NCBI GenBank assembly: GCA_003243975.1
Contig: QHBJ01000023.1
Location: 1 to 64,000, forward strand
Reading direction: 5' to 3'
Length of the DNA stretch: 64,000 bases
Source: Candidatus Meridianibacter frigidus
GTDB lineage: Bacteria; Vulcanimicrobiota; Vulcanimicrobiia; Vulcanimicrobiales; Vulcanimicrobiaceae
The notes under the pieces were generated by a model. The model worked only from the letters and a program-made list of their open reading frames with translations, searched no databases and had not been told where the DNA came from. Below, one piece after another: positions 51,006-58,360 of this stretch; positions within the stretch are counted from its first letter, which is position 1; each line of letters starts with the position of its first letter. Made by a program: the position numbers and the translations under genes.

Positions 51006-52124
51006 GTGTCAGCCATCTACGTTCATCTTCCATTCTGCCCGTACATCTGTCCTTACTGTGACTTTGCGAAGTGGCCGCACCGTGGGAGTTTGGCTCACGA
51101 TTACTTTGCCGCGCTGGTCGATGAGATCCGCCGCGAACCGGCCTTTGCGGCGCGGACGCTCTACTTGGGCGGCGGCACGCCCAATACGTACGGCTGCGCT
51201 CGTATCGCCGACCTGAAGGCGCTTTTGGACGCGCATTTTGGACCGTTTTCCGAGAGCAGCATCGAACTCAATCCCGAGTTAGTCGCCGCCGGAGATATGG
51301 ACGCGTACGCCCGCGCCGGGTTCGATCGCGTTTCGATCGGGGTGCAATCCTTCGAACCACGTGAGATCGGTACGCTCGGGCGACGCCACACGCAAAGCGA
51401 GGTCACGCGTGCAGTCAGCGCTGCACGCCAGGCCGGAGTACGTTCGGTTTCGATCGACTTGATGTTTGGGGTGCCCGGCCAAACCGTGCAAAGCTGGGGC
51501 CGCACGCTGAAGTCGGCGGTAACTCTCGCTCCGGACCACATCTCGGCCTATGGCCTCACAGTGGAAGAAGGAACACCGTTTTGGCAGTGGCGCGAAAAGG
51601 AACCCGGCGTCTTCCCGGGCGACGGGCTCGAAGCCGACCTCTACGAGCTTGCGATCGATGAACTCGGTGCGGCCGGATACGAACACTATGAAATTAGCAA
51701 CTTCGCGCGGCCGGGTCACCGTTGCGCCCACAACGAGAATTATTGGGCCAATGGCGAGTACCGCGGGTTTGGTGTCGGCGCGGCCTCGTATCGAAACGGT
51801 GTTCGATGGGTACAGAGCAGAGAGCTTGGCAGTTACCTGCAAGCTCTGCGGGACGGCGTTCAAGTTCCGGCACAATGCGAGCATTTGCAGAGTGCAGCCG
51901 CCGCCGGCGAAGCGGTGATGCTGGCGTTGCGGACGGCGGATGGGGTGGCCTTCGAAGCTTTCGCGCAACGCTACGGCATCGATTTCTTGGAGTTTTATCG
52001 ACCGGTGATACGGGACATGCAACGCGACGGTCTCCTGGCCGTCGACGGCGAGCGGGCGCGGCTAACCCAGCGCGGCCGTTTGCTAGCGAACGACGTTTGC
52101 GGAGCGTTCGTAACATTCGCATAG
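51006..52124 (+). CDS. hemW: Radical SAM protein HemW (heme chaperone / coproporphyrinogen oxidase-like)
   Basis: 372 residues. Radical SAM cluster motif [10 protein letters not shown] (CxxxCxxC), [30 protein letters not shown] and the HemN_C end. HemW lacks oxidase activity and is thought to deliver heme. GTG start one base after the degV stop. The frame is open further upstream but overlaps degV. Confidence 0.92.
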
Positions 52125-52126
52125 GA

Positions 52127-53203
52127 ATGCTCTCCGCGACGCTGCTGCGGGGCATCTTCGCCGTTGTGTTTGGCGTAACCGGATTCTTGCTGGGGCGCGA
52201 GGCCTACGCTGCGCTCATTTCACATTACTTTGCCAGCGACGCCTGGCAGCTGGGGTTCAATATTATCTCTCCGGTCCTCGGCGCCGTGGTCGGTGTGGCG
52301 CTCGCGCCCGCGGCGCAAGCCTTCTTCGAAGATGAGCTGAGCGTGGTCGAAGGGGCGATCGACCGTTTGTCTCCCGCAGAGGTGGCGGGCGGTGCGGTCG
52401 GACTCATCGTGGGACTTATCATTGCCTTTCTCATTAGAAGCATTCTGTTTGAATTCATCTCGGTCACCGGGCGCGCAGGCGGCTACATTGCGATCATGCT
52501 CTACATCGTTATCAGCATATTTGCAGCATACTTGGGCGCGCGCGTGGGTGCCAAACAGCGGATTCTGCCGGTGCCCGCAAGTTCGGGCTCTGCGGGCGGC
52601 GACGCAAATCCAAAGGTTGTGGACACCTCCGTTATCGTCGATGGGAGAATCCTGGAGATCGTGACCAGTGGTTTTCTGGAGGGTCCGTTAATTCTGCCAC
52701 GTTTCGTTTTGCGCGAATTGCAGCTTATTGCGGATTCATTGGACCCCATGAAGCGCGTTCGCGGACGCCGCGGACTGGACGTGCTCTCGCAGCTCCAACA
52801 GCATTCGGATGTTCGAATCAGCGAACGGGACTATCCTGACATCGTCGGTGGAGCGGTGGACGCCAAACTGGTCCGGCTGGCGCAAGAACTGGGCGGGAAG
52901 CTGGTCACCACCGATTACAATCTGAATCGCGTGGCCCATGTTGAGGGCGTGAGCGTCTTGAATATCAACGAATTGGCCAACGCGGTCAAGCCGGTTGTTC
53001 TTCCGGGTGAGGAGCTGAATGTGCAAGTTATTCGAGAGGGAAAGGAGTCACATCAAGGCGTCGGCTACCTGGACGATGGAACCATGATCGTGTTGGAAAA
53101 CGGACGCAAACTGCTGGGAGAAACCGTTGACGTTGTTGTTACGAGCGTACTGCAAACCGTCGCTGGCCGCATGATCTTCGCGCGCTTGAAGAAGGAGCAT
53201 TAG
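52127..53203 (+). CDS. PIN/TRAM-domain membrane protein (YacL family)
   Basis: 358 residues. Four N-terminal membrane spans ([28 protein letters not shown] and others), a PIN domain from about 155 ([43 protein letters not shown]) and a C-terminal TRAM domain ([14 protein letters not shown]). Putative membrane ribonuclease. In Firmicutes it is yacL, right before ispD as here; disA, which usually precedes it, is missing. Confidence 0.93.
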
Positions 53204-53204
53204 A

Positions 53205-54170
53205 ATGTTGTGGGGCGCAATCATCGTGGCCGCCGGGCACGGTACGCGTTTCGGAGAGCGCAAGCAGCTGGTTGAGGTGGCCGGCGCGCCGATGCTTGCA
53301 TGGTCGGCGCGACTTCTGTTATCGATGACGGAAATTTCTCACCTCATCGTGGTGACCGAAGCGCAGGACGGCGATGCGGTTCGGCAGCTGATGACCACGA
53401 TCGCCGGCGAAAAGCCCTTTGAGGTCATTGCCGGCGGTGCAACCCGGCAGGCAAGCGTGAGGGCTGGACTAGAGGCCGTCCCCGAAGCTTGCGTGGCCGT
53501 GCTCGTTCACGATGGAGCCCGCCCCTTGTTGCTCGCGCACGACGCCCGCAACGCTATGAAGGTCGTCGCCGACGGCACGGCCTCGCTCCTGGCGGTGCCC
53601 GTTGCCGATACGATCAAAGTGGTCGATGCAAAGGGCCAAGTTACGCGCACACTGGACCGGCAAGAGCTGTGGGCCGCGCAGACGCCGCAGTGCGCGATGG
53701 CGCGTGACTTACGGCGAGCCCACCACGATGCGCTTCGGAATGGGACGACGGCGAATGACGACGCGACGCTGCTCGAGCGTGCCGGTTTGCAGGTCATCGC
53801 GGTCGCTGGTTCCCCGGAAAACTTCAAAATTACGGTGCCTGCGGACTTGGCGCGTGCCGAGCTTCTTCTGCGCGAGCGCGCGCCATGGGGGCCGGAGCGC
53901 GAGGAGATTCTGCTGGTCGAAATGTTTGTCGAGGCAAAATTGGTAGCGGCCGTCTGTGGGGATGTGGAAGCTCGCGGGGGCACGATTGATGGAATCGAAC
54001 GCGATCTGCCGGACGGCGTGGCGATTCGTGCATACGTTTCCTCGGAGAACGTTGCGGGCTTTGAGGAACGCCTCGCATCCGTAAGCGGCGGCCGCGCGCT
54101 GTGCACGACGCACTTCTCGCATTTCGCGCAGCGCCACCCGCACGACGGGTTGGCTGCGCCCTCTGTCTGA
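53205..54170 (+). CDS. ispD: IspD cytidylyltransferase fused to an EF-G domain V-like module
   Basis: 321 residues, about 90 longer than IspD. Residues 1-224: complete IspD (IVAAGHGTRFGERKQ nucleotide motif, VHDGARPL, AAQTPQ, ENFKITVPADLA), which makes CDP-methylerythritol in the MEP pathway. Residues about 233-312 match the C-terminal domain of elongation factor G: LLVEMFVEAKLVAAVCGDVE, ARGGTIDGIERDLPDG, AIRAYVSSENVAGFEERL and SGGRALCTTHFSHF align with the VEV...GDLNxRRGxIxGME...IRAxVP...F...LRSxTxGRGxxxMxFxHY pattern. No stop or frameshift separates the halves. Function of the added domain is unknown. Confidence 0.92.
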   Translation: MLWGAIIVAAGHGTRFGERKQLVEVAGAPMLAWSARLLLSMTEISHLIVVTEAQDGDAVRQLMTTIAGEKPFEVIAGGATRQASVRAGLEAVPEACVAVLVHDGARPLLLAHDARNAMKVVADGTASLLAVPVADTIKVVDAKGQVTRTLDRQELWAAQTPQCAMARDLRRAHHDALRNGTTANDDATLLERAGLQVIAVAGSPENFKITVPADLARAELLLRERAPWGPEREEILLVEMFVEAKLVAAVCGDVEARGGTIDGIERDLPDGVAIRAYVSSENVAGFEERLASVSGGRALCTTHFSHFAQRHPHDGLAAPSV

Positions 54171-54172
54171 GC

Positions 54173-54640
54173 GTGCGTATCGGGTACGGTTTCGACGCGC
54201 ACCGCTTGGTGGAAGGACGGCCGCTCGTCCTCGGCGGCGTCGACGTGCCCGCGCCACGCGGTTGCTTGGGACACTCTGATGCCGATGCGCTCGCCCATGC
54301 GCTCTGCGACGCATTGCTTGGAGGGGCCGCGCTGGGTGATTTGGGAACGCATTTCCCCTCATCCGATCCGCAGTGGAAAGACGCGGATTCCATCCTGCTG
54401 CTGCGCGTGTGCGCCAAGATGGTTCACGATGCGGGTTACAGTATCGAGAACGTGGACGCCACGATCGTCTTGCAGTCACCGCAATTGGCGACCTTCCTTA
54501 CCAGCATTCGAGAACGCATCGCCGACGCGCTGGGATTGCCCTTTGGAAGCGTCAGTGTAAAGGCGAAGACAAGCGAAGGGATGGGCTATACGGGTGACGG
54601 AAGTGGGCTGGCCGTCCATGCGGTAGCGTCGCTGTCGTAA
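54173..54640 (+). CDS. ispF: 2-C-methyl-D-erythritol 2,4-cyclodiphosphate synthase
   Basis: 155 residues from GTG 54173. RIGYGFDAHRLVEGRPLVLG (metal-binding DxH), LGHSDADALAHALCDALLG, KTSEGMGYTGDGSGLAVHA. Follows ispD by two bases; with ispH it gives three MEP-pathway genes in this window. Confidence 0.96.
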   Translation: MRIGYGFDAHRLVEGRPLVLGGVDVPAPRGCLGHSDADALAHALCDALLGGAALGDLGTHFPSSDPQWKDADSILLLRVCAKMVHDAGYSIENVDATIVLQSPQLATFLTSIRERIADALGLPFGSVSVKAKTSEGMGYTGDGSGLAVHAVASLS

Positions 54641-54651
54641 ACGCCAAGAAC

Positions 54652-56214
54652 ATGATCGATTATCAGAGACCGCTGCGAGTGCGCTATGCGCCTTCGCCCA
54701 CCGGGCAGACGCACGTGGGTGGCGTGCGCACCGCGCTCTTCAATTACCTCCTCGCGAGAAAGACCGGCGGCGCCTTGATATTGCGGGTCGAAGATACTGA
54801 CGAAGAACGCCATTCGCCGCAAAGCGAAGCGAGCATGATGGCCGACCTGCGGTGGTTCGGCTTGAGTTGGGACGAGGGGCCTGACGTCGGCGGCGTTTTT
54901 GGACCGTACCGCCAGTCGGAACGGCTCGGGCTCTACGATGGTTACAGTCGTGAGCTCTTGGAATCCGGCACCGCGTACCGTTGCTACTGCACGCCTGACG
55001 AGCTAGACGCCGAGCGCACCGAACAGCGCGCGCGCGGGATCGTGGCAACAAAATACTCCGGTCGCTGCCGCCGGCTGAGCGCCGCGCAGCGCGCCGCATT
55101 CGAAGAAGAAGGCCGGAAGTGGAGCCTGCGTTTTCACGTGCCGCCGGGCCGCAGCGAGGTCGACGATCTGATTAAAGGCAAGGTCCATTTTGAAAACGAT
55201 GCCTTCGGGGACTTCATCATGATGAAGTCCACCGGCGGACCGACCTACAACTTTGCCGCCGCGGTGGACGATGCGTTGATGCAGGTCTCGGTGGTGTTAC
55301 GCGGCGACGAGCATTTAGCCAACACCCCAGTACAGATGATGTTGCTTCAGGCGCTCGGGTTGCAGCAGCCGCGCTACGCGCACGTTCCCCTGATTCTCAA
55401 CGAAGATCATTCCAAGCTGAGCAAACGTCACAATACCGTCGGCATCGAGGAGTATCGAAGTCAAGGCGTGCTGCCCGAAGCCCTGCTCAATCACTTGGTG
55501 CTGCTGGGGTGGTCGCCCGGTGACGATCGCGAGGAGTTTACCTTAGCAGAGCTTCCGGAGATCTTCTCACTCGAGCGCATTCATAAATCGCCCGCCATTT
55601 ACAATGCCGATCGGTTGCGCGCGTTCAACCAGCGTGCGCTGCGAAAGTTGCCGCCGCCTCAACTGCGCGCCATGATTGCAAGCGCAATGCAGGAAGCCGG
55701 CTTTTTGGAGAACCCCGCTCCCGAACCCGCGCTGCGCTGGCTCGACCTTTTCATCGAGGCCTACGGCGAGGAGTTGCACACGATTGGGGACGCGATTCCC
55801 CGCGTAAAGGCCTTGCGCGATGAAGCGGTGGTCGTGCCGGCACTGGAGCTCGAGCGCCTGCGCTCGCGCGACGTGCTCTTTTACCTGGATGCGGTGAGTC
55901 AGTACGTGGACGACCAATCGGAACTCCGCGGTTTGCCACTGAGCCACGACCTGCCGGAGATCGCCAAAGAGTTCGGGCTAAAGAAGAAGGAAGCGTTTCA
56001 CTGCGTCCGCATGGCGTTGACCGGCGAAAAAGGCGGGCCACCACTAACGCTGCTCTTCCCACTGCTGGGTCATGACCGCATCATGATGCGAATCGGCGCG
56101 ATCTCTTCACATCTCTTGCACGGCCGGGGTCTGGAGCCCATCAAATACGGTCCCGATGGTCAACCATTCGAACCGATACGGGGTGTCAAGTCCGAATCGC
56201 CGGACTCGGCATGA
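54652..56214 (+). CDS. gltX: Glutamate-tRNA ligase
   Basis: 520 residues. Class I synthetase with HIGH-like PSPTGQTHVGGVRTALFN and KMSKS-like KLSKRHNTVG, RVEDTDEERH, and a helical anticodon-binding end. A cysteine/histidine zinc pair is suggested by YRCYCTPDEL and the downstream CRRLS. Part of the conserved ispD-ispF-gltX-cysE-cysS run. Confidence 0.96.
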   Translation: MIDYQRPLRVRYAPSPTGQTHVGGVRTALFNYLLARKTGGALILRVEDTDEERHSPQSEASMMADLRWFGLSWDEGPDVGGVFGPYRQSERLGLYDGYSRELLESGTAYRCYCTPDELDAERTEQRARGIVATKYSGRCRRLSAAQRAAFEEEGRKWSLRFHVPPGRSEVDDLIKGKVHFENDAFGDFIMMKSTGGPTYNFAAAVDDALMQVSVVLRGDEHLANTPVQMMLLQALGLQQPRYAHVPLILNEDHSKLSKRHNTVGIEEYRSQGVLPEALLNHLVLLGWSPGDDREEFTLAELPEIFSLERIHKSPAIYNADRLRAFNQRALRKLPPPQLRAMIASAMQEAGFLENPAPEPALRWLDLFIEAYGEELHTIGDAIPRVKALRDEAVVVPALELERLRSRDVLFYLDAVSQYVDDQSELRGLPLSHDLPEIAKEFGLKKKEAFHCVRMALTGEKGGPPLTLLFPLLGHDRIMMRIGAISSHLLHGRGLEPIKYGPDGQPFEPIRGVKSESPDSA

Positions 56215-56262
56215 ACGCAGGATAAGCAACCCACGCAGCGCCGCAGCGGTTTGAGCTACACG

Positions 56263-56946
56263 ATGAGAAACGCGATCGACTGCATTGCGGCCGACCTGCG
56301 CGCCCCGCTGGAACGCGATCCTGCGGCGCGCGGCTGGCTGGATGTCGCGCTTTCGTATCCCGGATTTCATGCCATCGTGGCGCACCGCTTGATTCATGCA
56401 CTCTATCGCACGGGGCTGCCGATTCTTCCGCGCTTCCTCTCGCACGTGAATCGCTTCCTAACCGGAATCGAGATCCATCCGGCGGCCCGGATTGGTGCGG
56501 GACTCTTTATCGATCACGGCATGGGCGTAGTGATCGGCGAAACGAGCGAGATTGGCGAAAACGTGACGATGTACCAGGGCGTAACGCTTGGTGGAACGAG
56601 TCTTTCGCATGGAAAGCGTCATCCCACAATCGGAAACAATGTGACCATCGGCCTGAACTCCGCGGTGCTGGGCGCAATTTCCGTGGGCGACAATTCAAGG
56701 GTGGGCGCGGGCTCGGTGGTGGTCAAAGACGTACCCGCCAACGCAACGGTGGTGGGTATTCCAGCGCGCGTCGTCTTTCAGGACGGCCGTCCAGTGCATC
56801 CGGTCTCGCAGCGCCCGCAGGTCGATATGCCGGATCCAACTGCGGACCTCATCGCGCAACTGAGCGCACGCCTCAGCGAATTGGAACGCCAGTTGCGCAT
56901 CCTTCAGCGTGGAACGGCGGATGGGAGTAATGCTGAAGCTATATAA
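56263..56946 (+). CDS. cysE: Serine O-acetyltransferase
   Basis: 227 residues. N-terminal helical part (PGFHAIVAHRLIHALY), then hexapeptide repeats with GIEIHPAARIGAGLFIDHG and GVVIGETSEIGENVTMYQGV, typical of SAT. Makes O-acetylserine for cysteine synthesis. A TTG at 56251 is an alternative start. Coiled-coil-like tail (LIAQLSARLSELERQL). Confidence 0.95.
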   Translation: MRNAIDCIAADLRAPLERDPAARGWLDVALSYPGFHAIVAHRLIHALYRTGLPILPRFLSHVNRFLTGIEIHPAARIGAGLFIDHGMGVVIGETSEIGENVTMYQGVTLGGTSLSHGKRHPTIGNNVTIGLNSAVLGAISVGDNSRVGAGSVVVKDVPANATVVGIPARVVFQDGRPVHPVSQRPQVDMPDPTADLIAQLSARLSELERQLRILQRGTADGSNAEAI

Positions 56947-58360
56947 CACACGCACACGTAGGGTCGAAGAGTTTCGGCCGCTCCACCCGCCACATGTGCG
57001 AATCTACGTCTGCGGACTTACGCCCTCGGCCGAACCGCACATCGGCCACTTCCGCACCTACCTATTCTTTGATGTGTTGCGACGGTATCTCGAACATCTT
57101 GGTTACGACGTTCGCTACGTGCAGAATGTTACCGACATCGATGATCGTAGTATTGCGCGCGCGATGGATACCGGCGAGCATTGGTACGATATCGTCAGGG
57201 GGTTCTACGCGATGTTCAAGGACGCATGGCGCAAACTGGGGTTATTGCCGCTCGATGCGCACAACGAACCATACGCTACGCGTTTTATACCGCAGATTCA
57301 AATCATGATCTCCGAATTGATCGGTCGCGACTTGGCCTACGTCGCACGGGATGGAATCTACTACCGCGTTTCCAAGTTCGCCGGTTACGGCGCGCTCTCA
57401 AATCGAAATCTTGAAGAACTTCAAGCCGGCGCCCGCATCGAGATCGACGAGTTTAAAGAGGACCCGCTGGATTTTGCGCTCTGGAAGTTCGCCAAGCCCG
57501 GCGAGCCGAATTGGCCGTTTGAGGGCTATGGCGCCGGACGTCCGGGGTGGCACATCGAGTGTTCGGCGATGGCGCGCGAGCTCTTGGATCAGGAAGGATG
57601 CGGATTCGATATCCACGGCGGCGGCGCGGACTTGATCTTTCCGCATCATGAAAATGAGATCGCACAGAGCGAACCCTTGATGCGGAGCCCGCCGATGTCG
57701 AACTTTTGGGTGCACGGCGGCTTGTTGCTGCACGAAAGCAAGAAGATGTCGAAGTCGCTGGGCAACTTCGAACCCGTGGGCGGCCTTTTGGAGCGCCACG
57801 ATCCGCAAGCGATTCGGCTGCTATTCCTACAGACGGGCTACAGCAAAGTGATGAATTTCACCGAAGGTTCGATCACCGCCGCCGCCGCAGGATTGCAGAG
57901 GCTCAAGGCAACGTATCGCAGTTTGGCCCTCGCCGGAGCCCCCTCGACCCCGCAGTCTTCCGGAGCGCTGGTTGCGCGCATCGAGCAAGTCATGGGCGAG
58001 GACATGAACACTGCCGCCGCCATCGCGGAACTTCACCGCGGCGCGGCGCCCGAAGAATTTGGGCAATTCATCTACGCTCTGCAATTGCTGGGATTGAGCC
58101 CATCGCAACAGTGGATGGAGCACGCGCAGCTCGAGCTTCCCGATGATCTTGCGCAAAAACTCGTGCGGGAGCTAGGACCCACGGTTGCGCTGAATGGCGC
58201 AGAACCCCAAGAAGCCGTGGCTCACGTTATTGCGCTGCGCACGAAGGCGCGCGCGCAAAAGGATTGGACCGAATCCGATCGCCTTCGCGACGCGCTCGCA
58301 CGCGCCGGCGTGGCCCTCGAGGATTCCAAGGACGGCACGACGTGGACCGTTCGTCCGTAG
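56930..58360 (+). CDS. cysS: Cysteine-tRNA ligase
   Basis: 476 residues from ATG 56930 (ATG 56921 also possible). CGLTPSAEPHIGHFRTYLFF (HIGH and first zinc Cys), WHIECSAMA and HPHHENEIAQSE-like zinc region (FPHHENEIAQSE), KKMSKSLGN, and the DALR domain. Overlaps the cysE end. The adjacency to cysE couples cysteine supply with its charging. Confidence 0.96.
   Translation: MLKLYNTRTRRVEEFRPLHPPHVRIYVCGLTPSAEPHIGHFRTYLFFDVLRRYLEHLGYDVRYVQNVTDIDDRSIARAMDTGEHWYDIVRGFYAMFKDAWRKLGLLPLDAHNEPYATRFIPQIQIMISELIGRDLAYVARDGIYYRVSKFAGYGALSNRNLEELQAGARIEIDEFKEDPLDFALWKFAKPGEPNWPFEGYGAGRPGWHIECSAMARELLDQEGCGFDIHGGGADLIFPHHENEIAQSEPLMRSPPMSNFWVHGGLLLHESKKMSKSLGNFEPVGGLLERHDPQAIRLLFLQTGYSKVMNFTEGSITAAAAGLQRLKATYRSLALAGAPSTPQSSGALVARIEQVMGEDMNTAAAIAELHRGAAPEEFGQFIYALQLLGLSPSQQWMEHAQLELPDDLAQKLVRELGPTVALNGAEPQEAVAHVIALRTKARAQKDWTESDRLRDALARAGVALEDSKDGTTWTVRP

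Follow-up and report, generated by a model that had tools for sequence, protein, structure and literature searches.

Why should an enzyme of isoprenoid biosynthesis end in what looks like a piece of a translation factor? The question is raised by the ispD gene of Candidatus Meridianibacter frigidus, which lies in the 64,000 nucleotides of contig QHBJ01000023.1 analyzed here (the window). The ORF extends without interruption over positions 53205-54170 and encodes 321 amino acids; it, the parts of the protein located below, and ispF are on the + strand. The initial annotation had noted about 80 extra C-terminal residues with the pattern of EF-G domain V (EFG_C), and had suggested that they might tie isoprenoid synthesis to ribosomes or simply be a reused ferredoxin-like fold.

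The core of the protein, residues 1-223 (53205..53873), was identified as 2-C-methyl-D-erythritol 4-phosphate cytidylyltransferase. The Pfam IspD model matched residues 5-223, the whole catalytic domain, with an E-value of 9e-60 and 202.7 bits (cut-off 27), and the match to TIGR00453 was 214.5 bits against a cut-off of 181.3. Over the core, a model of the full-length protein resembled the IspD structures in the PDB, the best being that from B. subtilis (5ddv, TMt 0.91). The strictly conserved residues of E. coli IspD, R20, K27, G82, D106, R109, and K213 (PMC11770629), correspond to R15, K20, G78, D103, R106, and K208 here and were invariant in 61 aligned relatives. By sequence, the ORF is predicted to encode a complete IspD that converts CTP and MEP to CDP-ME. 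In a Pfam scan of the 321-residue protein, no model exceeded its cut-off other than IspD, EFG_C, and a related NTP-transferase model; the GTPase domain and domain IV of EF-G were absent, and the protein does not classify as a translational GTPase. Between the two main Pfam matches is a linker, residues 224-234 (53874..53906), with a pLDDT of 70 at residues 221-230.

The tail proper, residues 235-310 (53907..54134), is homologous to EF-G domain V in both sequence and predicted fold. The comparison with PF00679 proposed in the initial annotation gave 38.8 bits in the context of the whole protein (cut-off 27.9) and 42.2 bits with an E-value of 8.5e-11 for the tail by itself, and all 13 of the relatives' tails that were scanned matched EFG_C independently. 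When PDB sequences were searched with the tail in phmmer, EF-Gs were matched, the best with an E-value of 4e-5. The structural comparison it had likewise proposed agreed. AlphaFold modeled the isolated tail with a mean pLDDT of 87, rising to about 96 over residues 11-60, and with the βαββαβ order of a ferredoxin-like fold; the top PDB matches of this model in Foldseek were EF-G domain V, with E-values near 2e-8 and rmsd of 1.0-1.3 A. Chance resemblance to EFG_C was ruled out by the Pfam match, the 13 relatives, and Foldseek.

The genome encodes four GTPases bearing EFG_C, and a profile made from the tails scored best against the canonical EF-G (27.7 bits), with the others at or below 11.4 bits. 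The tail therefore appears most like canonical EF-G, which is a likelier source than LepA, TypA, or an EF-G2-like protein, and the latter three were set aside on this basis. The source genome does possess a second EF-G-like GTPase beside the canonical one (L033, G000:C9:11407-11658), with an open frame of 685 amino acids; it is not a likely source of the tail.

A fusion of this kind in a metagenome-assembled genome might be an assembly join or a chimera, and the initial annotation had argued against a join from the continuous reading frame. That argument was borne out. The fusion was found in 35 genomes of 15 genera, among them a relative (G007) assembled as one contig of 3,508,363 bp, in which the IspD (L009, 317 amino acids) carries the tail. 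The length of this contig is exactly that of the closed chromosome of Vulcanimicrobium alpinum WC8-2, a pure culture (PMC9758169), and on this match in length an assembly artefact is excluded. A separate tail gene or a split ORF was also rejected, given the single open frame across 53205-54170. The sole stand-alone match to the tail, of 85 amino acids in G018, was at a contig edge, and the matching core fragment was at the edge of another contig.

Directly downstream of ispD is ispF (54173..54640), for which a GTG start at 54173 was inferred from the sequence, and the IspF motif G-x-G-x-D-x-H occurs 14 nt past the first base of the ispD stop codon. No IspF domain is fused to the IspD; ispF is a separate ORF following the TGA stop. 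The ispD-ispF order was the same in all 30 relatives' loci examined, tail present or not. The two genes are part of a compact cluster at 51722-58360 comprising a PIN/TRAM-like ORF, ispD, ispF, gltX, cysE, and cysS, the names having been assigned by reading the translations. We take this gene order to be like one in Firmicutes.

The tail was then sought more widely with a profile built from 13 tails. Family matches were at least 98 bits, whereas the EF-Gs of the same genomes scored no higher than 38.5 bits. The profile found the tail in 35 of 99 genomes of the Vulcanimicrobiaceae, a family described as Baltobacteraceae (PMC9758169) in the phylum Eremiobacterota/Vulcanimicrobiota. The survey of relatives' IspDs suggested in the initial annotation thus had a mixed outcome, in that the tail recurs and is also missing from many relatives. 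None was found outside the family, either in the other genomes of the 149-genome phylum sample or in a sample of 388 genomes. A degenerate DNA pattern for a hairpin of the tail, described below, was searched over 84,980 species genomes and gave 26 loci; 25 were the IspD tail, in Eremiobacterota/WPS-2 or in bacterial MAGs, and L078 was cut at a contig edge. A pattern this strict may have missed divergent cousins elsewhere. The tail-bearing family consists of soil and ice bacteria. A literature search, with most subscription journals outside its scope, returned no report of an IspD with such a tail.

The distribution of the tail requires eight changes on a tree of IspD cores and ten on a tree of EF-G, used as a proxy for the history of the organisms. 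The four lineages that branch off deepest within the family, one after another, on the EF-G tree (G021, G033, G025, and the source genome itself, G000) each carry the tail; the order-level outgroup is without it. The simplest reading is that the tail was gained once, at the base of the family, and has since been lost about nine times, because all tails have in common a hairpin that is missing from EF-Gs; transfer of the tail between family members is possible. Core and tail identities were correlated with r = 0.90 over 465 pairs, as expected if both have descended together vertically. Loss could also be seen within genera, in G095 beside G096 and G032, and in G108 beside G017. Inspection of six tail-less loci showed no remnant of the tail; IspD stops cleanly right before IspF in them. 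The tail-less IspDs L131 (G108), L128 (G095), and L017 (G036) are from genera that otherwise keep the tail and represent clean recent deletions, potentially useful as natural controls.

Repeated loss shows that IspD activity does not depend on the tail, and raises the prospect that it is a passenger, a neutral and harmless by-product of an old fusion that is deleted occasionally. The roughly nine independent losses without visible replacement would fit this, as would one clade (L014, L067, L077, L087, and L090) whose tails are without the conserved FSHxAxR end, the end of the last strand. In the cores of the same clade, four residues are deleted near positions 177-181 and position 167 is not basic; the clade may represent a half-way stage of tail decay. 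Against a passenger, dN/dS in the 22 closest pairs (core dS < 0.6) was 0-0.39 for the tail and 0.10-0.43 for the core, several tail residues are invariant over 15 genera, and the tail is present in all four deepest lineages. These substitution ratios show that the tail is under purifying selection where it is retained, although selection against misfolding alone could mimic part of the conservation signal. We consider a passenger improbable, and regard the fusion as real, old, selectively maintained, and dispensable.

What, then, is being maintained? In T. thermophilus EF-G, R660, S661, and Q664 make a network with the sarcin-ricin loop (PMC6562825), and the homology of the tail to a domain that is bound on the ribosome at this loop and the L11 region (PMC6562825, PMC7395135) is the argument for the first suggestion of the initial annotation, in which the tail would tether IspD to the ribosome or its GTPase center and couple isoprenoid synthesis to translation. 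We aligned 34 tails with 40 EF-Gs from the family and its outgroup, having verified the numbering of R660, S661, and Q664 on T. thermophilus EF-G in the PDB. The segment equivalent to R660-R666 is residues 291-297 here (54075..54095), A-S-V-S-G-G-R. R660 was found in none of the 34 tails versus all 40 EF-Gs, and Q664 in none versus 39 of 40; S661 was present in five tails and R666 in one, both being present in all 40 EF-Gs. The EF-G helix GDLNRRRG is replaced in the tails by a mostly acidic helix with a single conserved Arg, and the mean net charge of the tails was -6.9 compared to -3.0 for the EF-Gs. The EF-Gs of the hosts are encoded by normal genes of their own and keep the contact residues. 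A lone EF-G domain lacking the GTPase domain is not known to have affinity for the ribosome. With the sarcin-ricin-loop residues lost, the helix and overall charge acidic, and the EF-Gs encoded separately and normally, a ribosome tether is unlikely as judged from these contacts, and we give the proposed coupling to translation very little credence. The other suggestion of the initial annotation, a reused ferredoxin-like fold, lies closer to the evidence.

The tails do have a conserved feature of their own. Residues 262-269 (53988..54011) form a family-specific hairpin, D-x-x-x-R-[DE]-L-P, in which D262, R266, L268, and P269 were invariant among the aligned tails; host EF-Gs have E-E-x-x-G-G-A at this position, and the D-x-x-x-R-[DE]-L-P motif is absent from them. 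The full set of invariant tail positions was E239, D262, R266, L268, P269, R275, A276, and T301. Comparison of the aligned sequences points to the hairpin as a new contact surface. The charged invariant residues E239, D262, R266, and R275 could alternatively form a ligand-binding site. Since ACT domains have the same ferredoxin-like topology as that predicted here, the tail might be an ACT-type ligand sensor that exerts feedback control on the MEP pathway. Yet EF-G domain V was the best match in both sequence and fold, and no ACT family appeared in Pfam or among the 50 Foldseek matches listed, which makes such sensing a doubtful prospect, marginally more so than a passenger.

One core column of the IspD alignment varied most strongly with the presence of the tail. 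Residue 167 (codon 53703-53705) was Arg in 22 of 31 tail-bearing IspDs and in none of 43 tail-less IspDs of the family (Fisher p = 5.5e-12, ignoring kinship), and a basic residue at this position occurred mainly in company with the tail. A Pagel-type likelihood test for dependent evolution on the tree, which covered 17 of the 27 strongest tail-associated core columns, gave p = 6.7e-6 for R/K/H at this residue and 9.2e-5 for Arg alone. After Bonferroni correction for 510 states, these became 0.003 for R/K/H, a grouping chosen post hoc, and about 0.05, which is borderline, for Arg alone. Four supported independent pairs were available at residue 167, too few for a sign test. Residue 97 (53493-53495) was the second-strongest tail-correlated core column, with Asp in 30 of 43 tail-less and 2 of 31 tail-bearing IspDs; dependent evolution was indicated there with p = 6.2e-5, Asp being favored without the tail.

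In the predicted model, residue 167 begins a core helix, residues 166-179 (53700..53741), beside the segment that forms an allosteric pocket in the Arabidopsis enzyme. The residues of that pocket are Q238, V239, I240, F249, and D262 (PMC11770629). They were aligned by motif, from QTPQ to DD, with the second Gln and the first Asp 23 residues apart in both proteins and the Arabidopsis segment verified, and correspond to Q162, C163, A164, H173, and D186 here. The helix is thereby matched to the pocket segment with Q238, V239, I240, and F249, and D262 is just beyond. The natural function of the plant pocket is unknown (PMC11770629). The clade whose tails are without the end of the last strand has its 4-residue core deletion at the end of this helix. 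The covariation at residue 167 suggests that the tail may pack near the helix.

A partner other than the core itself was also considered. The tail may be a docking module for another enzyme of the MEP pathway, IspF or IspE, and the complex so formed would resemble IspDF fusions. The gene for IspF is directly downstream at all loci examined, natural IspDF fusions exist, assemblies of IspD, IspE, and IspF have been proposed (PMC5821942), and the tail is a compact module with a conserved surface hairpin unlike that of EF-G. However, ispF is just as adjacent where the tail is missing; the best p for any IspF column was about 3e-6, as compared to 5e-12 for core residue 167, kinship being ignored in both; and complexes of the three enzymes were undetected in vitro with the B. 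subtilis and E. coli proteins (PMC5821942). Docking to IspF or IspE is in our estimation unlikely.

The explanation that we favor, tentatively and at somewhat below an even chance, is that EF-G domain V has been reused as an accessory domain that acts on IspD itself, stabilizing or tuning the enzyme. A single fusion event in the ancestor of the Vulcanimicrobiaceae (Baltobacteraceae) would have joined a copy of the domain to IspD, and the copy would then have become an accessory domain, with the residues contacting the ribosome lost. Its ferredoxin-like fold would pack onto the core near helix 166-179 by means of the invariant hairpin acquired by the tail, and this packing would stabilize IspD or adjust its activity. 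The domain is optional, and deletion of it has happened many times. A narrower proposal, that the tail is a cis regulator docked on the helix flanking the flexible allosteric pocket, is a long shot, about on a par with a passenger. If it were true, a biological use would have been found for that pocket region for the first time, and the tail would represent the recruitment of a translation-factor domain as an enzyme regulator. Action through the pocket-adjacent helix would likewise bear on the role of the pocket, which is a herbicide and anti-infective target. Because EFG_C has been described as a domain that arose inside the EF2/EF-G family of translational GTPases (PMC4342817), its presence alone on a metabolic enzyme is unusual in any case. 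The tail was apparently gained once and lost about nine times, and a strain in culture has the fusion; the family thus offers a natural experiment.

An extra C-terminal domain on an IspD-family enzyme has a precedent in human CRPPA/ISPD, where both the domain and the pathway are different. With canonical IspD (PF01128, TIGR00453), the protein described here shares the full core, the active-site residues, and an adjoining ispF; the canonical enzymes, and the tail-less IspDs of the same family, are without the additional domain of about 85 residues. Compared to EF-G domain V (EFG_C, PF00679), the tail retains homology above the cut-off and the same ferredoxin-like fold to within 1.0-1.3 A rmsd, but it stands alone on an enzyme that has no GTPase domain, has lost the residues for the sarcin-ricin loop, carries the invariant R-[DE]-L-P in the hairpin between beta2 and beta3, and is strongly acidic. 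In the bifunctional IspDF of Campylobacter jejuni and alphaproteobacteria (NF006899), IspD likewise has a partner fused at its C-terminus, in that case the enzyme IspF; here the partner is a non-catalytic domain derived from EF-G, and ispF is a separate gene.
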